Positions 13,564-28,541 of a stretch of 64,000 bases of DNA are shown here, piece by piece; the stretch's first letter is position 1; each line of letters starts with the position of its first letter. The notes under the pieces were generated by a model, which saw only the letters and a program-made list of their open reading frames with translations, ran no database searches and had not been told where the DNA came from. Where the stretch lies: positions 1 to 64,000 of the forward strand of contig JAFGOE010000030.1 in the NCBI GenBank assembly GCA_016926625.1, written 5' to 3'. Made by a program: the position numbers and the translations under genes. Origin of the DNA: Candidatus Zhuqueibacterota bacterium. GTDB taxonomy: Bacteria; Zhuqueibacterota; Zhuqueibacteria; Thermofontimicrobiales; Thiofontviventaceae.

Positions 13564-15231
13564 TTAATTCAGTTGATCCTTCAGATAGTCCTGATCGATC
13601 AATCGTTCACCGTCGAGGTTGTCATCGCCGGTGCTATGGTTATCGTCCTGATCATTTAAAATTTGAGTGCATTTTGTGACGAACGCCTGGGCATCGGCCA
13701 ATCCGGTCTCGCTGTCCACCACGAGTTTATCGATCAATTGCGGCAGTTCGCGTATGAGCGGGATCAGCTCGAGTTTAAACGGTATGTTCCCCGCTAATAT
13801 ACCTTCCACGATATCGGATACGAAGGTGATAAACTCGTCGATGCGCTCGTACTCAAACAGTTGTGCCGAACTTTGCAGTGATGAACAGGCTTTTTGGATA
13901 TGGCCCAGAATTTTTTTATCGGCTTTGCTGTCGTCGAAATCTTTAACCGCCTCATTCAGGATGTTGATATCACCCCGGATCTCCTCTTCGAAAATTTCAG
14001 TAAACACACGATTACTTTTCGGCGATTTCAAGGATAAATCCTTCATGTCGAACGTGGGCTGAGACACGCTTGACTTGTTCCTGGGAGTATCTTTTTTCTC
14101 TGTCTTTTCGCCATGATCACCGGATTTAGCCGCGACGGGTACGGGATCCTCTTTCTTATTTGATTTACCAGGTTTTTCATCTGCTTTTTCGATTTTAGTC
14201 GCTTTGATCTGTTTCTTCTCCTGTGATAAACCGGTGGCGATGATGAGCACCCTCAATTTACTGTCCATATCATTATCGATTCGGGCACCCCAAATGATAC
14301 GCGCCTTTGGGTCGAGTTTTTGGGCGATGGAGTTCATGACGTTGCGCGCATCCTTGATGGTCATGTTTTCATCGCCGATCACATTGATGAGCGCACTTCT
14401 GGCACCCGTGATCTCTGTATCAAGCAGGGGATTGTTGATCGCTTTCTCGACCGCATCGTCGGCCTTCGTGTCCGTATTACTTTCACCGATACCGATCATC
14501 GCGGTATCTCCGTTCTTCATCACCGATTTGACATCGGAGAAGTCGAGATTGACCAGTCCTTTTTCTGTAACCAGTTCTGTAATGCCTTTCACAGCATCAA
14601 CGAGCAGTTCGTCGGCAATTTTGAACGCAGCGTTCAATGGCAGGTCGGGGACCAGATTGAGCAATCGATCGTTTTTTATGGCGATGACGGTGTCGGAGTT
14701 TTTACGCAGTTTCTCCAAACCCTGAAGAGCATTTTCCTGCCTGATCACGCCCTCTTCTGTGAACGGCAGGGTCACGATGGCGATGGTTAATGCTCCAAGA
14801 TCACGTGCAATTTCAGCGATCACGGACGACGACCCTGTGCCGGTGCCACCGCCCAGTCCACACGTCACAAACACCATGTCGCTGCCCTTCAACATCGCCC
14901 TGATATGTTCTTCATTCTCTCTGGCACTCTGTTCACCGATGGTCGGATCGCCCCCGGCACCCAGTCCATTGGTGATCTCCCTGCCGATGAGTATCTTTGC
15001 ATGGGATTTAGCGGCTAACAAATCCTGGGCATCTGTGTTAATGGCGATCGTCTCGATCCCGTTGACGCCCACTTCCGCCATTCTCGTTAATGTGTTATTT
15101 CCGCCCCCTCCGGTACCAACGACTCGGATGACGGTCCGGTGTGCATTGAGTACCTTTTCAAGTTCTGAATCTTCGATCAAGAAACTGTCTTTTTCAATTT
15201 TTAGATGCTGATCTTTTCCGCTGTGCGCCAT
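13564..15231 (-). CDS. archaeal-type FtsZ fused to a C-terminal CheA-type pseudo-Hpt (His->Ser) domain
   Basis: 'RVVGTGGGGNNTLTRM', 'CGLGGGTGTGSS', T7 loop 'GLVNLDFSDVKSVM', archaeal-like 'LNLVPDLPLNAAFKIADELL' and 'DPKARIIWGARIDNDM'. Tail aa ~409-505 aligns to CheA Hpt; 'KACSSLQSSA' where Hpt has 'RAAHTLKGSA'. SD taaggaggtt. Confidence 0.85.
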   Translation of the reverse strand: MAHSGKDQHLKIEKDSFLIEDSELEKVLNAHRTVIRVVGTGGGGNNTLTRMAEVGVNGIETIAINTDAQDLLAAKSHAKILIGREITNGLGAGGDPTIGEQSARENEEHIRAMLKGSDMVFVTCGLGGGTGTGSSSVIAEIARDLGALTIAIVTLPFTEEGVIRQENALQGLEKLRKNSDTVIAIKNDRLLNLVPDLPLNAAFKIADELLVDAVKGITELVTEKGLVNLDFSDVKSVMKNGDTAMIGIGESNTDTKADDAVEKAINNPLLDTEITGARSALINVIGDENMTIKDARNVMNSIAQKLDPKARIIWGARIDNDMDSKLRVLIIATGLSQEKKQIKATKIEKADEKPGKSNKKEDPVPVAAKSGDHGEKTEKKDTPRNKSSVSQPTFDMKDLSLKSPKSNRVFTEIFEEEIRGDINILNEAVKDFDDSKADKKILGHIQKACSSLQSSAQLFEYERIDEFITFVSDIVEGILAGNIPFKLELIPLIRELPQLIDKLVVDSETGLADAQAFVTKCTQILNDQDDNHSTGDDNLDGERLIDQDYLKDQLN

Positions 15232-15247
15232 TTTAAATTGAACCTCC

Positions 15248-16900
15248 TTAATAGACTTGAGGATAAATCACATCGTGCTCATTCTTCAATCGGTTCAGCT
15301 CATGGAGGTGTAGATTTAGTTTATGAATGATGTGATTACGGTTTAATAAGATTGAATCGTGATCAACTGACTCAAGGAGTTGGATTGCTTCTTGAATTGT
15401 GTTTAGTATCGGGGGGGTTAGTTTAATATTCTGATTGATTGAAAAAGTGACCAGATTTTCAATTTTACGAGGGATATCGCTGATATCTTCGAACCCGAAT
15501 TTAATGGTTTGCGATTTCAGACATGACGCTGCTAACTCTAAATTTTCCAGGGCCGATTCGTTATACCGATCGCGAATAAGCGCAGTCACGGATACTTTAC
15601 CCAACTTAAAGTACGCGCCCGATTCCTCCAGGAAGATCTTGACATCGATATCGTCGGCGACATCATCGTCCAGGGAATGGTCATCGTTGTTTAATATATC
15701 GCTCGAATCAAAAGGTGTGTATGCGACTCCTGAAACATCAGCATCAATATTATTAACTGAAGAACGTATTTCGTCTGAGTTGAGTTCCGTGTCGTCCTTC
15801 GCTTTCCCGTTGCTAATTTCCTGAATCAAGATCAATAGTTCAGGGTCGTCTTCGCCAGGAATCTTAAAATCGCCTGATTTACATTCTTCATCAGGATCAT
15901 CGTCATCTATTTCGGTTGATGCTGGTTCAGCTTCATGCTCTGAATCAGTTGCGCTCTGCGGCAAGTCATCATCGGCATCGCTGATGGTGTTGTTTCTATA
16001 ATTCGTGGTCTGCTGCAACAGAGAGGCCTCGGTCGTTATGATGAACTCATCGAACGATTCGAGTAAAGGTAGTACATTGTCCGCGTCATCATCAACGTTT
16101 ATCATCCTGGCGAGAATACGTCGTCCGTGCTTGAGGATACCCACGATATCGTCAGAGAGAGAAGCTTTGAATGCTAATAAAATATTGGCCAATCGATATA
16201 TTCGATCGGCAATCGCTTCGATCTCCTGTTGTCCGTTCATGATGGCCACGGTTTTTACATCTCTTGACATAGTGAGCCAATCCAGGTAAAATGTCTCATT
16301 ACTGACTGTCTTTAATGCTCCGTTGTCATACGGGTCGACAATGGCGAGCGCGTTGCTTATTTCTTCTTTAAAATAATAATCCAACAGTTCGCTATCTGCG
16401 ATGGAAAAATTATCCGGTTTCATGTCTGAAATTGATTTACCGTTGGTACTATCGGTTACCACATCAGCGTTACCGGGGTAGTTGCATCCATTCAAGTTTA
16501 AGTAGCTATAAAAATGCTCCTTCATTTGTTGGCTTGCTAAGAGCTGGTCCAACTGGTTCAGGAAAAAGCTGCAGATGTCGGCGATAGCTTCTTTCAACTC
16601 GGCCTTCTCTCTGCTGCTCAAATCCAGATGCTTCATGTAATTAACCAATTGGTCATACAGCCGAATCGAATCGTCGAGGCTGGAAAGATGCAACAGCTCG
16701 TCGGCCGTGTTGTTGGCTTCGATTAACTTTAAAATTAAAAAGCGTTTGATGCGACTCGTACCATTTCCCATGGTATCGTCGAACAGTATCTCCCTGTTCA
16801 AATTTTTCGCTACACACAATGAAAAATAACTGTTCGGATGGAAAAAGATATTCAGCAGTCGATCGAAATAGAGATTATTCCTGGTTGCTATATCATTCAT
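15248..16900 (-). CDS. protein with degenerate Hpt-like (Spt-like) domains and an acidic linker
   Basis: aa ~417-511 'DVKIFLEESGAYF...NLELAASCLKSQTIKFGFEDISDIPRKIENLV...LTPPILNTIQEAIQLLESV' aligns with CheA Hpt (H->S459). aa ~172-267 'WLTMSRDVKTVAIMNGQQEIEAIADRIYRL' is a second copy (H->R). Confidence 0.65.
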   Translation of the reverse strand: MNDIATRNNLYFDRLLNIFFHPNSYFSLCVAKNLNREILFDDTMGNGTSRIKRFLILKLIEANNTADELLHLSSLDDSIRLYDQLVNYMKHLDLSSREKAELKEAIADICSFFLNQLDQLLASQQMKEHFYSYLNLNGCNYPGNADVVTDSTNGKSISDMKPDNFSIADSELLDYYFKEEISNALAIVDPYDNGALKTVSNETFYLDWLTMSRDVKTVAIMNGQQEIEAIADRIYRLANILLAFKASLSDDIVGILKHGRRILARMINVDDDADNVLPLLESFDEFIITTEASLLQQTTNYRNNTISDADDDLPQSATDSEHEAEPASTEIDDDDPDEECKSGDFKIPGEDDPELLILIQEISNGKAKDDTELNSDEIRSSVNNIDADVSGVAYTPFDSSDILNNDDHSLDDDVADDIDVKIFLEESGAYFKLGKVSVTALIRDRYNESALENLELAASCLKSQTIKFGFEDISDIPRKIENLVTFSINQNIKLTPPILNTIQEAIQLLESVDHDSILLNRNHIIHKLNLHLHELNRLKNEHDVIYPQVY

Positions 16901-16933: not shown

Positions 16934-17641
16934 TTATAAAATACCACTTTGTTCTCTAAACTTCTTATATAGTTTTAAGACTGCAGGGACGTAACCGCGT
17001 GTTTCTTCCCATAAGATATCATCCTGCCTGTTGCTTCTCAGCCACATGGCTGCGCGTTTCTCGCCTCCGTTGTATGCCGCCAGACCACCATCGACCTCAT
17101 AGGCGTGGATCAGGGACGATAGGTATCGACAACCTAATCGGATATTATAGATCGGATTGAATAGCACATCCTCTGGTGTCGTCCACTGAATGCCTTCGTA
17201 GTCGGATAAGAAGATGCCGGTCGTCGGCATGATTTGCATCAATCCCATCGCTCCTGCATGAGATACCACTTCAGGATCCCAGGATAAGGCGCTCTCATGG
17301 GTGATGGTCGCGCAGATGAGATCAATGTCGAGATTCGTGTATTTCATACTCATCTTGTAAATCTCCTCCGCGATCTCATATTTTAAGCCCGGTTCCATCT
17401 CCTGGTTGTATTTATCCATAATTCCCATGATTTTCTGGATATTTACCAAACGGATGTTATCCATTTTCATGGAAGCTTTAATGTCCCGCATGGTTTGTTC
17501 AATTTGATTCATCTTGAATACAGTTTCGTCAGATGTATAAAACTTGTACGAGAAACTGACGGTTGAAATACTGGCTAGCAAAATGATGAACATTAATAAA
17601 ATTGTTTTCCCCCTACGATCTCGTCTCGCCAAGATGCTCAT
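16934..17641 (-). CDS. membrane-anchored lytic transglycosylase, SLT domain
   Basis: N-terminal TM helix; 'ATITHESALSWDPEVVSHAGAMGLMQIMPTTG', 'NIRLGCRYLSSLI', 'LAAYNGG', 'RGYVPAVLKLYKKF'. SD ggaggt before ATG 17641. Confidence 0.92.
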   Translation of the reverse strand: MSILARRDRRGKTILLMFIILLASISTVSFSYKFYTSDETVFKMNQIEQTMRDIKASMKMDNIRLVNIQKIMGIMDKYNQEMEPGLKYEIAEEIYKMSMKYTNLDIDLICATITHESALSWDPEVVSHAGAMGLMQIMPTTGIFLSDYEGIQWTTPEDVLFNPIYNIRLGCRYLSSLIHAYEVDGGLAAYNGGEKRAAMWLRSNRQDDILWEETRGYVPAVLKLYKKFREQSGIL

Positions 17642-17883
17642 TCTTTGTACCTCCAATTTCTAAAGATCTCAGTAATTAATAAATGCTAATCAACGATGCG
17701 AATGAGATTGTAGAATTAAGCTTAAAGTAACTGTCACATCGAATAAACAATTTTACCTTAATTATATACAAATTTGAAGCCAGAATTTCATAATTCATCT
17801 TTCCTTAGTTTAATGACAAGTAAAACATCTCATAACATTTTGAATAATAGTTAAATAGAAAATGATTAAAAATACAAATAAAA

Positions 17884-18708
17884 TTAATTAGCCATTCTAC
17901 TGACGTCGCTGAGATGCTTATTTGTGGCCAACTTTGATGCAATTGTTCCATTCTGACTCAAAAATTCACGAGCCAAATCGAGATAACTCGTGGACCCTTT
18001 CGCCGATTTGTCGATGTAGTAAGCGGGTTTGCCATAATACGGGACTTCGGCTAAACGGATATTACGAGGTATCATTGTTTCGTACACAAGTTCTTTCAAG
18101 GTTTGCCTGACCTTAGTCACGACTCGCTTTGAAAGGTTATTTCTTAGATCCACCATGGTCAAAAGAAATCCGCGATACGATAAATCAGGGTTGTAGTTCG
18201 TCTTGATAATCTTTATCTCTTTGAGCAGCGAACCCAGCGCCTTTAATGCATAGAATTCGCATTGAATGGGTACGAGCACGGAATCCGAGGCGATCAATGC
18301 GTGAGACGTTATATTATTCAATGTCGGTGGATTATCGATAAAGATAAAATCGTAGTGCGATTTCAATCCGGACAATATTTTTTTAAGTTTCGCCTCATTC
18401 AACGGGGCGATGAAGCAATCATGTTCTCTGTCGCCTATCTCGTTCACATAGGGTATGAAGTCGAAATTATCGATCGGTGTCTTATGAATCAGATCCATGA
18501 TGTCTTTCGATTCGAAGATTGCCTCATCGATACTTCCTTTGATATCGTATTTGGCATATCCAAAACTAGCGCTGATATGACCCTGCGGATCAAGATCGAT
18601 CAATAATATCTTCTGATTTAATAGAGCAAGGCTGGCAGATAAATTAACCGCTGTTGTGGTTTTCCCGACTCCCCCTTTTTGACTCAAGATAGTAACAATT
18701 TCACCCAT
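17884..18708 (-). CDS. ParA/Soj family ATPase
   Basis: 'VTILSQKGGVGKTTTAVNLSASLA', 'LLIDLDPQGHISASFGY', 'YDFIFIDNPPTLNNITSHAL', 'VPIQCEFYALKALGSLL'. Confidence 0.95.
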   Translation of the reverse strand: MGEIVTILSQKGGVGKTTTAVNLSASLALLNQKILLIDLDPQGHISASFGYAKYDIKGSIDEAIFESKDIMDLIHKTPIDNFDFIPYVNEIGDREHDCFIAPLNEAKLKKILSGLKSHYDFIFIDNPPTLNNITSHALIASDSVLVPIQCEFYALKALGSLLKEIKIIKTNYNPDLSYRGFLLTMVDLRNNLSKRVVTKVRQTLKELVYETMIPRNIRLAEVPYYGKPAYYIDKSAKGSTSYLDLAREFLSQNGTIASKLATNKHLSDVSRMAN

Positions 18709-18756: not shown

Positions 18757-19200
18757 CTACCTGGCATTCGAACATACCGTGTGCGAATGTACAGGTAAGA
18801 TCTCATCCTCATGTGCATCATCATCGTCAAAGACCATACGTTTCAAATCATGGATGTCAAACGGTTTTTCAATATATCGAAGATCTGCTGTTTTACTAAG
18901 TTTATGTTTTAGCTCGCGTTCGATTTCAGGCGTGCCATAGGCGGTCATCAAAATGACCGAGATCTTCAGTTTTTTGCTGATGATCTCATCGAGCAATTCG
19001 AGCCCGCTTATGCCCGGCATGCGGATATCGGAAATAACCAAATCGAATTTGGTCGTTTTCAATAACTGCAACGCTTCATCACCACGATTCACACATTGAA
19101 CTTCGATTAAATCATCGGATCTCTTCAGGCTTTTCGAAATACTCCAGCTTAAGTCTTCTTCATCATCCGCAATCAAAATTTTATTGTAACGAGTCTTCAT
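18757..19200 (-). CDS. single-domain CheY-like response regulator
   Basis: 'KILIADDEEDLSWSISKSLK', 'DLVISDIRMPGISGLELLDEI', 'VILMTAYG', 'YIEKPFDIHDLKRMV'. Confidence 0.9.
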   Translation of the reverse strand: MKTRYNKILIADDEEDLSWSISKSLKRSDDLIEVQCVNRGDEALQLLKTTKFDLVISDIRMPGISGLELLDEIISKKLKISVILMTAYGTPEIERELKHKLSKTADLRYIEKPFDIHDLKRMVFDDDDAHEDEILPVHSHTVCSNAR

Positions 19201-19352: not shown

Positions 19353-19369
19353 AAGCAAAGAATGTGCCA
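19353..19369 (-). promoter_or_regulatory. sigma-54 (-24/-12) promoter upstream of the CheY-like/parA genes
   Basis: Reverse complement TGGCACA-TTCT-TTGCT against consensus TGGCACG-N4-TTGCW, with GG/GC spacing intact. Confidence 0.75.
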
Positions 19370-19417
19370 CAGACTAAATAATATTTTAACTATATTAATT
19401 TATATAGGTTTGTAAAA

Positions 19418-19464
19418 ATTAATCGATTATATTATTTAAAATCAAATAATTATAATCGATTAAT
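19418..19464. promoter_or_regulatory. candidate enhancer-binding site: paired TAATCGATTA palindromes
   Basis: Near-perfect inverted repeat attaatcgattatattattt / aaataattataatcgattaat; the palindromes at 19420-19429 and 19453-19462 are 33 bp apart. Confidence 0.5.
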
Positions 19465-19548
19465 AAGAGGGGGTTCTGAAAATTAACAATTTGTAATATT
19501 AGCAGCTGAACGATTCGGGCTATATCGAATGGTCAATTTTCGATCAAA

Positions 19549-20955
19549 TTATCCTATTTCGTACTGCTTTAATTTCTCTCTGAGAGTGGAGCGCGATATG
19601 TTCAGGATACGCGCCGTTTTGGATTTATTTCCGTTGTATTTCTCTAAAATATTGAGGATATGCTGTTTTTCCATCTCCTGCAACGACTGTTCTTCGGGCA
19701 TCACCTTTGGCAGCGGGGGAGGTGCCGTGGGGGTGTAATCCACCGCGGTTTTCTCTGCAGTCGTGGTGAACGATGCGGGGGATCTCATGCTCAGTTCACC
19801 CGGTAGATGATTTGCCTCGATGATCTCGCCGCGACAGAGAATACAGGCTCGTTCCAGGACATTACGCAGCTCACGAATATTGCCGGGCCAGCTGTAATGG
19901 GTCAATATGTCCATGGCTTCCGGCGAAATATCCTGGATATTCTTGTTAAAATCGGAGTTATTTCTGGATATGAAGTATTTAGCCAGTATGATGATGTCGC
20001 TGGTTCTCTCCCGCAGCGGTGGTACCACGATTTCCATGACATCGAGTCGATAAAAGAGATCTTCCCTGAAGATACCTTTTCTTATGCATTCCTGGATATC
20101 CTGGTTAGTCGCCGCGATTACCCTGACGTCGATCTCGATATCATTTGTACCGCCGACACGGCGGACTGAGTGCGTCTCCAGTACACGCAGCAATTTAGGC
20201 TGCAGGAACATGCTCATGCTGGAAATTTCATCGAGAAAGATCGTTCCGGTGTGTGACAGTTCGAACAATCCCTTTTTCAGGGTTTTGGCGTCGGTAAAGG
20301 CGCCTTTTTCATGTCCGAACAATTCGCTTTCAGCCAAATTTTCGGTAAGGGCTGTGCAATTGATGCTAATAAGCGGCTTATCGGAGCGGTCACTCCAGTT
20401 ATGAATCGCTTTGGCAACCAGTTCTTTGCCAGTTCCCGTTTCCCCCTTGATCAACACCGACGTTCTGGGAGTGGCTGCCACGAGTTTAATATGGTTAATG
20501 ACCTCCATGATCTTGGGGTGATTACCGATAAACGGATCGTCCTTGCGTCGTTCCGATTCGAGCATCTGCAGAGAAGCCTGACGTTTGAGCGTCAGCGTCT
20601 CCAGAGACTTTTTCACGACCATTCTCAGCTCTTCGATCTCAATCGGTTTCATGAGGTAGTCGTACGCACCAGCCTTCATCGCCTGGACAGCCGATTCGAT
20701 GGTACCGTGGGCTGTAATCATGATGACCAGCAGATCGGGATCGATCTCCATGGCTTCTCGCAGAACCTGCATACCGTCCTTGCGCGGCAACCGGTGATCG
20801 AGCAGCATCAGGTCGAAAATTTGTTTTTTTAGCAGCTCGAGCGCCTTTTCACCATCGTAAGCGGTTTCCACCCGATGCCCTACCTTACGCAAATTAATTG
20901 CCAGCGGTTCACAGATGTCCTTTTCGTCATCTACAACTAGTATATTCGCTCCCAT
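19549..20955 (-). CDS. NtrC-family sigma-54-dependent response regulator
   Basis: Receiver 'LMLLDHRLPRKDGMQVL', AAA+ 'GETGTGKELVAKAIH', 'GHEKGAFTDA', Fis-type HTH 'EKYNGNKSKTARILNISRSTLREKLKQY'. Confidence 0.96.
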   Translation of the reverse strand: MGANILVVDDEKDICEPLAINLRKVGHRVETAYDGEKALELLKKQIFDLMLLDHRLPRKDGMQVLREAMEIDPDLLVIMITAHGTIESAVQAMKAGAYDYLMKPIEIEELRMVVKKSLETLTLKRQASLQMLESERRKDDPFIGNHPKIMEVINHIKLVAATPRTSVLIKGETGTGKELVAKAIHNWSDRSDKPLISINCTALTENLAESELFGHEKGAFTDAKTLKKGLFELSHTGTIFLDEISSMSMFLQPKLLRVLETHSVRRVGGTNDIEIDVRVIAATNQDIQECIRKGIFREDLFYRLDVMEIVVPPLRERTSDIIILAKYFISRNNSDFNKNIQDISPEAMDILTHYSWPGNIRELRNVLERACILCRGEIIEANHLPGELSMRSPASFTTTAEKTAVDYTPTAPPPLPKVMPEEQSLQEMEKQHILNILEKYNGNKSKTARILNISRSTLREKLKQYEIG

Positions 20956-20961
20956 ATAGGG

Positions 20962-22998
20962 TTACTCCTCTGTAGGTAATAAGATTGTAAAGGTCGTACC
21001 TTTTCCTGATTCGCTTTCGACACTGATGTCACCCTTATGATCTTCCACGATGCGATAGACGATAGACAGGCCGAGTCCTGTGCCGGTCGCCTTCGTCGTA
21101 AAAAACGGATCGAATATGCGGTTGACTGCCTCCTGGTCAATGCCCTTTCCATTGTCGATCACCTTGACTCGAATATATTCTGATTTTTTGGTGACGGCGA
21201 AGCGGGCGTTCCGTCTGTCCTTAGGCTGAAGTTGTGTCTCTATCGGAGCGGCTTCAACGATCAATTTCCCGCCACTTTCCATGGCTTCGATGGCATTGAT
21301 GAATAGATTGATGAATATCTGTTGAATTTGATGAAAATCCACAAACACCGAAGGCAGCGATTCACTCAGCTTGGTTTCGAACTCGATACCGCTCTTCTTG
21401 ATGCGATCTTCGATCAAAATTAATACTTCCTTTATTATAGTCTCTAATTGATACTTTTTCAGGTTCGGTTCACGCGGTTTTGCATAGGAGAACAATGTCC
21501 GCAGCAGTTCATCCAGCCGGTTAACCTGAGCGATGATTCGACCCAGATATTCTCGTCTGGTATCGTTTACCTCAAAATCTTCCTCTAGCGTTTGGGCGAT
21601 GATCTTGATCCCGGCGATCGGATTTCGCACCTCGTGCGCCAGTCCCGATGCAAGAACGCCCAGCGAGGCGAGTCGGTCCATACGTAACACCTCGGACTGC
21701 ATCTGCTTGATCTGGGAGATGTCACGAAATGAGATGATATGTCCGACTTTCAGCCCATAATTATCGATGCGCGGAGTGAGCGTGTAACCGATGGTGACCT
21801 TGCTCCCGTTTTTGCGCGTGGTCTCTAATTCTCTTCTGATGTTGGAATGATCGGGTGGAATGATTTCTGGTACTAATCGTTTGCTCTCTTCCTTGGGTAT
21901 CACGTCATCGATATTCTTGCCGATCACTTCTTCCGACTTATAACCGAGTACATCTTCGGCACCGCTGTTGAAAGATGTGATCTTCCGATCGAGATCCAGG
22001 GTAATGAGTCCCGCATAAATGCTTTGAATAATGCTTTCGTTGAAATTTTTTAACTCGATGTTCTCCTGTTCCAATTCCTTGCGCTGTGTAATATCCCTGG
22101 CGATGCCCACCAGTCCCACCACCTCAGCTCTTTCGAAAATAGGATTGATATTCATGGATAAAAACAGCGGAAAGCCGTTTTGGCAGATGATACGGCACTC
22201 GAAGATTCGTGCCTTACCCTGAATTGCCTTCTGGAAATTAATACGGGCGTCGACCCTGTCTTCGGGTGCGACCAGATCGAAGAAACTTCGGCCCATCCAG
22301 TCCTCGCGTGAGAAACCGGTCAGCGTCGTCAGCCTGCGATTCAGAATCATGAAATCACCCTTTAAATTTAGGGTGAAAATGATGTCGTTTGCGTTCTCGA
22401 TCAGATCCTGATATTTATACTCGCTTCGCTTGATTTTTTGTTCGAGTTCTTTATTCTTTTTCTTGACCTGATTCAGGATGAACACGTTGTCGATGACATT
22501 AATGAGCTCGCGATGACCGAACGGTTTAATCAGAAACGCTGATAAACCCATTTCAAACAGGGAGCCGCGGTCCAATTCGTAATCGTTCTTCGCTGTGAGC
22601 ATGATCACCGGGGTGTCAGAAAGATGGCGGAAACGCTGGTTCGTCACCAGACGTTGAAACACCTCCACACCATCGATCCCGGGCATCATGTAATCGAGCA
22701 AAATAAGGTCGGGTTTATACTTGAGGATAAAATCGATGCCTTCAAGGCCGTCTTTGGCCGACAGGAAATTATAACCAGCAGAGATAATAATCTTTCGGCC
22801 GACTTCTATCATATCGGGATCGTCATCGATCAGCAGGATCATTTTTTTATTGTCTCTATCCGCTGTCGTACTGTTCAGAGATAACGATCTGCCGCTCTTG
22901 TAGATGTGGTCGAAGATGTAATTTTCTATGTCGTGTAGGCTCTTCTCGTTCTTCTGATGAAACTGTTCCCCCTTCCCTTTGTTATCATCTACATTCAT
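20962..22998 (-). CDS. hybrid sensor histidine kinase (receiver, two PAS, HisKA, HATPase)
   Basis: N-terminal 'PDLILLDYMMPGIDGVEVF'; PAS 'ENANDIIFTLNLKGDFMILNRRLTTLTG'; H-box 'LASGLAHEVRNPIAGI'; 'VIDNGKGIDQEAVNRIFDPFFTTKATGTGLGLSIV'. Confidence 0.95.
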   Translation of the reverse strand: MNVDDNKGKGEQFHQKNEKSLHDIENYIFDHIYKSGRSLSLNSTTADRDNKKMILLIDDDPDMIEVGRKIIISAGYNFLSAKDGLEGIDFILKYKPDLILLDYMMPGIDGVEVFQRLVTNQRFRHLSDTPVIMLTAKNDYELDRGSLFEMGLSAFLIKPFGHRELINVIDNVFILNQVKKKNKELEQKIKRSEYKYQDLIENANDIIFTLNLKGDFMILNRRLTTLTGFSREDWMGRSFFDLVAPEDRVDARINFQKAIQGKARIFECRIICQNGFPLFLSMNINPIFERAEVVGLVGIARDITQRKELEQENIELKNFNESIIQSIYAGLITLDLDRKITSFNSGAEDVLGYKSEEVIGKNIDDVIPKEESKRLVPEIIPPDHSNIRRELETTRKNGSKVTIGYTLTPRIDNYGLKVGHIISFRDISQIKQMQSEVLRMDRLASLGVLASGLAHEVRNPIAGIKIIAQTLEEDFEVNDTRREYLGRIIAQVNRLDELLRTLFSYAKPREPNLKKYQLETIIKEVLILIEDRIKKSGIEFETKLSESLPSVFVDFHQIQQIFINLFINAIEAMESGGKLIVEAAPIETQLQPKDRRNARFAVTKKSEYIRVKVIDNGKGIDQEAVNRIFDPFFTTKATGTGLGLSIVYRIVEDHKGDISVESESGKGTTFTILLPTEE

Positions 22999-26998: not shown

Positions 26999-27425
26999 AT
27001 CCCTATCCTTGTCTAAGTTATAGTAATCTCAATATCTAGATGAATAAAATACAACATAATTCTCAAATTGTCAAGTAATTTTTCCCAGCCACAGGTTAAA
27101 CTTGATTAACATTTAATTGCGTTAAACGAGACGAGACGCGGCTTCTGCCGACTGCTCCACACGATCGCAGCGAACTCTGACCCGCGTGCCCGGGTTTTGC
27201 TTCGTTAGATCATGTACTGCATGATCAGTCAATTGCGTTTTTGAAATTTGATACACCACAATTACGTCTTTGTGTTACACCTTGAAACATGTGCATCATT
27301 TGTGATATAAATAACGCATATTTTATATAGAAAACTGCGAATATAATTTAATAATAAATTTATTTTATTAAAAATAGGCCTTTTATGGTGTTTTACAACT
27401 GGCATAGTTTTTGAATGTATAAATA

Positions 27426-28541
27426 GTGAACGATGGGGGAAGTGTTGGTAACTTATATCAATGGATAAACAAAATGAGCGAGTCACATAGCAAACATATT
27501 CCAATGAGTCACCATATCTTCTCGAATTCTTATCCAATGATCGATCATTTCCCAAAGGAATTGAGACGAAAGTGGTATGAATCGATCGATTACCGTTTTC
27601 TGTTCATCCTGTTAGTGACGTCATTGACGGTAGTGAGCCTGATGTACCGGTTTGGTAATAAGGAAATACTGGATACGCTTTTAGAGTCGCGCATTCACTC
27701 ACAAGAAAACTATACTCGATTTATTTTAGAAGATATGGCTGCGATTTCGGAGCAGTCAGCGAAACCTGTTGCTGATGCGATGTCTGAGGATAGAACTCGA
27801 ATGGAGTTACTATTACCCGATAATGTCAAGGTTGAGTCCGCCGCCGAGCCTGCTGAGCTTCTACAGAAGAACATGCCCGCAAGGGCGGTCGTTACCAATC
27901 GTGCTAAACCGACAACCGGCGTAAGCTCTGGTGCAAGCGACGAATTTCAAACGACGTTGTCGGACGCACCGACGGTGGCCCTTGGGGATCCGGGTGCATA
28001 TGGACGGACACAACGCGTCGCGAGTACGGAGATCAGCGGTCCGAGAACGATAGGCAGTCCCGAAATAGAAGATATGAAGACACAGCGTTATGTAGAATAT
28101 AATAAAAATTCGAATAAATTAATCATCGAAGAGTACACACCCTATTCGAGTGCGCATGAACCGACGACAGGGGATAACGATGCCGCCTGGCGAGACATGA
28201 GGGCTGACCTGGCCAAAGACCTCAATATGCGAGCGTATGATGGTACTGTCAGGTCGCCGGAAGCGATCTCGAGAGTGCTGCTCAATCACAACAAGGCGAT
28301 TCAGGATTGTTATAAACAGGCGTTACGTGAAAATTCCTCATTAAAGGGTAAAATCAGCGTACAATTTGCAGTTGATTTTCGCGGACTCGTGAAACGCGTC
28401 GACATCGTCCATTCGTCCCTGAACGACAAGCGACTGGAGCGTTGTATACTTACGATGATCAGAAGTTGGGATGATTTCGGTCCGAGCGATCCCAACTCAG
28501 GCGATTCGATTTACAAACAGACTTATGTCTTCGGAAAATAG
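27426..28541 (+). CDS. TonB-like protein with AgmX/PglI-type C-terminal domain
   Basis: Single N-terminal TM helix; C-terminus 'NHNKAIQDCYKQALRENSSLKGKISVQFAVDFRGLVKRVDIVHSSLNDKRLERCILTMIRSWDDFG'. An alternative ATG lies at 27474. Confidence 0.75.
   Translation: MNDGGSVGNLYQWINKMSESHSKHIPMSHHIFSNSYPMIDHFPKELRRKWYESIDYRFLFILLVTSLTVVSLMYRFGNKEILDTLLESRIHSQENYTRFILEDMAAISEQSAKPVADAMSEDRTRMELLLPDNVKVESAAEPAELLQKNMPARAVVTNRAKPTTGVSSGASDEFQTTLSDAPTVALGDPGAYGRTQRVASTEISGPRTIGSPEIEDMKTQRYVEYNKNSNKLIIEEYTPYSSAHEPTTGDNDAAWRDMRADLAKDLNMRAYDGTVRSPEAISRVLLNHNKAIQDCYKQALRENSSLKGKISVQFAVDFRGLVKRVDIVHSSLNDKRLERCILTMIRSWDDFGPSDPNSGDSIYKQTYVFGK

Follow-up and report, generated by a model that had tools for sequence, protein, structure and literature searches.

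In the enteric NtrC system (glnALG), a response-regulator enhancer-binding protein (EBP) acts from a palindromic upstream activating sequence (UAS) at a distance of over 100 bp from the sigma-54 promoter, and it also serves as repressor of its own operon by way of a site at a sigma-70 promoter. In the sigma-54 regulons described for Clostridiales, many palindromes are EBP-specific and the UAS mostly lies 100-250 bp from the promoter, the distance typical for sigma-54 promoters (PMC6615313). A third point of comparison is the DVU2894/FlrA-type motif, yGTCA-N6-TGACr (PMC4641369). Here, we analyze an intergenic region between an NtrC-type regulator gene and a receiver-ParA-FtsZ operon. It is located in a 64-kb stretch of DNA (hereafter the window), which belongs to a genome of 3.6 Mb in 134 contigs that is 85% complete.

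A sigma-54 promoter is strongly supported on the minus strand of this region. The predicted -24/-12 element, TGGCACATTCTTTGCT (19354..19369, read 19369-19354), agrees exactly with the consensus and has the canonical GG-N10-GC spacing (GG at -24, GC at -12, 10 bp between). It is the only perfect match to TGGCACN5TTGCW in the window and obtains the top score when the window is scanned with a sigma-54 matrix. This pattern occurs six times in the whole genome against zero times for the reversed control pattern, and one RpoN is encoded (Sigma54_DBD match, 210 bits). As the -24 GG and the -12 GC are 10 bp apart, transcription is predicted to start at about 19343, some 143 nt ahead of the ATG of the receiver gene at 19200. 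A -24/-12 element is found 5' of the orthologous receiver gene in 32 out of 33 genomes of the class (p <= 0.05 versus dinucleotide shuffles), usually 52-80 bp ahead of the start codon. The start codon assigned to the one exception (G031) was too far upstream, and extending the region downstream yields TGGTATACTGATTGCC. In G001, the identity of the element is uncertain: spacing was measured from the candidate TGGAATAATATTTGCA, 503 bp ahead of the ATG, while the count of 32 used another element. Fresh genomes from sister classes of the phylum carry the element in 15 out of 15 cases (p <= 0.015 each). An earlier sequence-only reading of this DNA had proposed a minus-strand sigma-54 promoter with correct -24/-12 spacing, and this proposal stands.

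Further upstream, 2 bp past the stop codon of the NtrC-type gene, lies a conserved palindromic candidate UAS, TGATCGAAAATTGACCA (19530..19546, minus strand), with 169 bp separating its center from the -24 element downstream. It is the window's version of the palindrome TGRYCRAAAATYRRYCA that is conserved in relatives. Scanning the window with a position weight matrix (PWM) gives 21.9 bits for TGATCGAAAATTGACCA and 11.2 bits for the runner-up, and in its own genome it is the sole exact match to its pattern. For the test across genomes, a symmetric matrix was built without the family under test. Since the training sites were seeded by a consensus searched 140-200 bp upstream, the leave-one-family-out and held-out results weigh most. 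In the former, the best site falls 150-192 bp (median 180) 5' of the -24 element in 29 out of 31 genomes, with p <= 0.01 in 26 and p <= 0.05 in 30 of the 31. Six genomes outside the training set show spacings of 149, 149, 149, 195, 192 and 191 bp. In the sister classes, a UAS with p <= 0.05 occurs in 12 of the 14 genomes with enough sequence, with distances of 115-180 bp for the reported sites. The PWM scan upstream of the promoter finds no clear UAS in G037. In three genomes in which the receiver gene and ntrC lie on different contigs (G030, G046 and G052), the UAS is still at its place ahead of the receiver gene. The site at 19530-19546 is dyad-symmetric, lies within 100-250 bp upstream and is conserved together with the regulator, as is expected of the UAS of an EBP. 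Literature searches for the palindrome motif returned no paper containing it.

Two exact copies of another palindrome, TAATCGATTA, are present between the candidate UAS and the promoter, at 19420-19429 and 19453-19462. They are the only copies in the window (0.2 expected). In 3000 dinucleotide-shuffled versions of the intergenic region, two TAATCGATTA never occur together, and a pair of identical 10-bp palindromes of any sequence occurs in 0.9%. Their centers are 33 bp apart, with about 82 and 115 bp between them and the predicted start downstream, in agreement with the sequence-only reading (two perfect palindromes 33 bp apart, about 75-120 bp upstream of the start). The two do not stand independently of each other: they are the ends of one perfect 14-bp inverted repeat (19418-19431 and 19451-19464) that folds as one 21-bp stem. 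The whole 47-bp repeat (19418..19464, minus strand) has a folding energy of -16.5 kcal/mol (z -8.0; as good in 0 out of 200 shuffles) and is directly followed on its 3' side by a T run (TTTTT; 19413..19418) on the ntrC strand. The interval 19413-19464 hence combines the stable hairpin and the T run of an intrinsic terminator with a stem that is A/T-rich instead of G+C-rich, as each TAATCGATTA holds two C/G bases, and a rule-based G+C scan finds no terminator in it. For this reason, we speak of a hairpin or terminator at the 3' end of the NtrC operon and regard this assignment as probable.

The relatives are consistent with such a role. Hairpins of unrelated sequence occupy the equivalent interval in the other two members of the family (G001, -12.6 kcal/mol; G002, -23.8 kcal/mol), textbook terminators immediately follow ntrC in G003 and G009, and in G005 a strong hairpin precedes a T run. 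A sliding-fold comparison of the intergenic regions of 15 relatives, which is noisy and assigns a z of only -1.6 to the hairpin of the window, detects hairpins in genomes of families f1, f2 and f3, while those of f7, f8 and f10 mostly lack them. Among the intergenic folds compared, those of many more remote relatives show no evident hairpin. Position and structure are kept and the letters are not, which fits a transcript hairpin rather than a protein site. The inverted repeat might instead be a DNA operator through which another regulator modulates the promoter. The long perfect arms, their location between enhancer and -24 element and the single TAATCGATTA palindromes elsewhere in the genome would suit an operator. 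This explanation is nonetheless unlikely, as the sequence is not conserved, the hairpins of G001 and G002 behave as if structure rather than letters matters, and the T run is located 3' of the repeat on the transcript strand. The transcript hairpin is therefore preferred; the sequence-only reading had held a weak terminator in reserve, and for the TAATCGATTA pair this fallback serves better than an enhancer.

The protein proposed to bind TGATCGAAAATTGACCA is encoded directly next to it (19549..20955, minus strand). It comprises a REC domain (PF00072), a sigma-54 AAA+ domain (PF00158) and a Fis-type HTH (PF02954), all above cut-off. With 407 bits for TIGR01818 (NtrC sensu stricto or NR-I; cut-off 558.6) and 463 bits for the AtoC model (cut-off 714), the regulator is NtrC-like and by curated cut-offs neither NtrC nor AtoC. 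Its sigma-54 contact loop reads GAFTDA rather than GAFTGA, as in 31 out of 31 orthologues, and belongs to the variants listed as retaining activity (PMC4641369). The recognition helix region of the HTH (NKSKxARxLNISRSTLREKLK) is nearly invariant among the orthologues. The neighboring gene (20962..22998, minus strand) encodes a histidine kinase with a REC-PAS-PAS-HisKA-HATPase architecture, the proposed cognate kinase; at almost every locus, the kinase gene adjoins that of the NtrC orthologue. A search of 63 class genomes for orthologues of both response regulators found the NtrC-type protein in 47 and the receiver protein in 34.

When the class was scanned for TGGYCRAAAATYRRCCA with one mismatch allowed, a second recurrent place emerged upstream of the operon that encodes the NtrC orthologue, of which the first gene in relatives is gcvPB or a diguanylate cyclase gene. 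The motif is present there in 13 genomes from five families (f3, f7, f8, f10 and f11), 75-434 bp before the first gene and outside the coding sequences of these first genes. In 12 of these 13, it begins 2-12 bp after a sigma-70-like TTGA(C/T)(A/T)-N17-TANNTT, as read from the printed sequences. The single sigma-70-like matches are weak (p 0.17-0.86), and it is the recurring position alone that is persuasive. In G030 and G046, the promoter of the NtrC operon has two motif copies 73 bp apart (L173, 1538 and 1611; L174, 1507 and 1580), a spacing of seven helical turns, as for cooperative repression. G003, G005 and G009, and probably also G011, have motif matches inside gcvPB itself. These were disregarded, since three of them fall on the same codon, 876 bp from the start of the gene, and are explained by protein conservation.

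Because a site at a sigma-70-like promoter would block RNA polymerase, autorepression combined with sigma-54 activation is the economical reading. The evidence points to the adjacent NtrC-type protein as the ligand of the palindrome, acting as autorepressor at its own operon in relatives and as sigma-54 activator at the receiver operon. In the window's own genome, autorepression is unsupported, as no recognizable site copy precedes the NtrC operon (best 5.3 bits). That a different NtrC-family protein binds the palindrome is improbable. The genome does offer candidates, as a search with this NtrC gives 19 matches at E <= 1e-60, and G023, which is only 85% complete, has the site and the operon and lacks an NtrC orthologue at E <= 1e-140. 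Against this stand the two conserved site copies that bracket the operon of the adjacent NtrC, and the orthologue, the kinase and the site travel together across families. The same observations favor the adjacent NtrC-type gene as candidate activator, as the sequence-only reading had suggested.

Where this activator would bind is the point on which the two analyses part. The sequence-only reading took the TAATCGATTA pair for tandem dimer sites from which the NtrC-type protein activates the promoter. Such an arrangement has some appeal, as the two perfect palindromes lie three helical turns apart, 82-115 bp upstream of the start, and are rarer than chance, yet we consider it very improbable. 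In 30 relatives that have both the orthologous promoter and the orthologous regulator, the 330 bp preceding the promoter hold no TAATCGATTA with fewer than two mismatches, the pair forms a single inverted repeat, and the conserved spacing belongs to TGATCGAAAATTGACCA. The genome scan that had been advised for TAATCGATTA pairs near -24/-12 elements returned eight other copies, all single and with no sigma-54 element beside them. With several of these copies located within genes, TAATCGATTA was also discarded as a genome-wide regulon marker. We propose TGATCGAAAATTGACCA, the predicted NtrC site, and not TAATCGATTA as the conserved enhancer. Finally, a chance -24/-12 match in an operon driven by another promoter is highly unlikely: a sigma-70-like TTTACA-N16-TATAGT (10/12 match) does lie just upstream at 19416-19389, but such matches are no more frequent in the region than in shuffles and two independent genome sets both retain the sigma-54 element ahead of the receiver orthologue.

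A few further sites may belong to the same regulon. In the window's genome, a perfect -24/-12 element precedes the gene of an orphan sigma-54 activator (G000:C30:7574-7589; L013:1501-1516). TGATCGAATGTTATCCA (12.8 bits) lies 173 bp upstream of it, which makes this locus a possible second target. High-scoring UASs also occur 213 and 220 bp from perfect -24/-12 elements in two other genomes (L177 in G002:C509 and L180 in G036:C242, respectively), and both loci, the former of which precedes an OmpR-type regulator gene, are candidate regulon members. Within the window, the near sigma-54 element TGGCATAGTTTTTGAA is situated at 27400-27415 on the plus strand, just before a TonB-C-like gene at 27426, and the PWM scan detects no UAS of the NtrC-palindrome type near that gene.

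All genes of the controlled operon lie on the minus strand. The first encodes the single receiver-domain protein (18757..19200; Response_reg, 77 bits). Many of its orthologues carry a DUF4388 (PATAN) tail, which is missing in all three family members. A ParA/MinD-type ATPase (17884..18708; AAA_31, 172 bits) and a membrane-anchored lytic transglycosylase (16934..17656; SLT, 66 bits) follow, both syntenic in relatives. The next gene (15248..16900) encodes an uncharacterized 550-aa protein that matches no Pfam family and has syntenic homologues in G001 and G002 and, by gene order, in G005. To the eye, the C-terminal part of this protein (LELAASCLKSQTIKFGFEDIS) is similar to an HPt bundle that lacks the histidine. 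The last gene (13564..15231; TIGR00065, 405 bits) encodes a second FtsZ; the canonical ftsZ is located elsewhere in the genome (C74). Judging from their order and common strand, we infer that the five genes form one transcript. The second FtsZ is found in 34 class genomes, 30 of which also carry the receiver gene (Fisher p 1.5e-9, with shared ancestry left out of account); in 22 genomes the two lie within 3-7 kb of each other. The combination of second FtsZ and receiver-ParA operon is conserved in about half of the class.

By eye, the GTPase motif (GGGTGTG) and the T7 loop (NLDFSDV) of the second FtsZ are intact. Its C-terminal tail is predicted to form a helical bundle (core pLDDT of about 90), for which the best solved Foldseek matches are CheA P1 domains, with an E-value of only about 2e-3. 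The phospho-histidine expected of a CheA P1 is missing at the equivalent place. CheY docks on the P1 domain of CheA. By analogy, the receiver could dock on the P1-like domain of the second FtsZ, although a CheY-like receiver acting on this tail is speculation. The operon would produce the histidine-less P1-like FtsZ paralogue together with a receiver, a ParA positioning ATPase and a lytic transglycosylase. Tentatively, the sigma-54/NtrC switch might drive a signaling-controlled second FtsZ system, a dedicated and condition-dependent septation or wall-remodeling module of a whole, probably uncultured, phylum. Keyword searches of the literature returned no paper on such an FtsZ operon.

From the features visible in the DNA (promoter, palindrome, spacing, conservation, hairpin and gene order), we infer a succession of binding, phosphorylation, activation, repression and termination events that very likely makes the intergenic region a two-part switch. 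The kinase would phosphorylate the adjacent NtrC-type regulator, which would bind TGATCGAAAATTGACCA as dimers, just past its own stop codon; genome-wide, its expected binding motif is TGGTCRAAAATYGACCA. Through a DNA loop of approximately 170 bp, it would then activate sigma-54 RNA polymerase at TGGCACATTCTTTGCT and switch on the operon of the receiver, ParA, transglycosylase, pseudo-HPt and second FtsZ genes. In many relatives, the orthologue probably also represses its own operon via the site copy at the sigma-70-type promoter. TAATCGATTA, as the stem of the transcript hairpin, would end or protect the NtrC transcript and so separate it from the sigma-54 unit.

The mechanism is of the known NtrC/sigma-54 kind, and the regulon is new. 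The regulator, its site and its target form a set that is conserved across the phylum and is testable. The target of the NtrC-like protein can be read from sequence, and the palindrome to be tested is now TGATCGAAAATTGACCA in place of TAATCGATTA. An unusual second-FtsZ operon under sigma-54 control would connect division or envelope genes to two-component signaling, a link for which the literature searched offers no precedent. With enteric NtrC/glnALG, the locus shares a response-regulator EBP and a UAS more than 100 bp from the sigma-54 promoter and, probably, repression of its own operon. It differs in its palindrome (TGGTCR-AAAAT-YGACCA versus the enteric TGCAC type), in its GAFTDA loop and in its targets, which are receiver, ParA, transglycosylase and FtsZ-like genes instead of nitrogen assimilation genes. 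The DVU2894/FlrA-type system likewise has a GTCA...TGAC inverted repeat that is read by a sigma-54 activator, but the spacer is six there and five here, that regulator is a flagellar, one-component protein, and the target genes are not homologous. The Clostridiales regulons (PMC6615313) rest on a comparable kind of evidence and have a comparable UAS distance, whereas their motifs are mostly TGT-N10-12-ACA or group-specific and both phylum and targets are different. Lastly, the bundle at the C-terminus of the second FtsZ is similar in fold to CheA P1 (HPt) domains such as 1i5n and 3kyi (target TM up to 0.77), from which it is set apart by the absence of the phospho-histidine, the fusion to FtsZ and a sequence identity of 6-15%.
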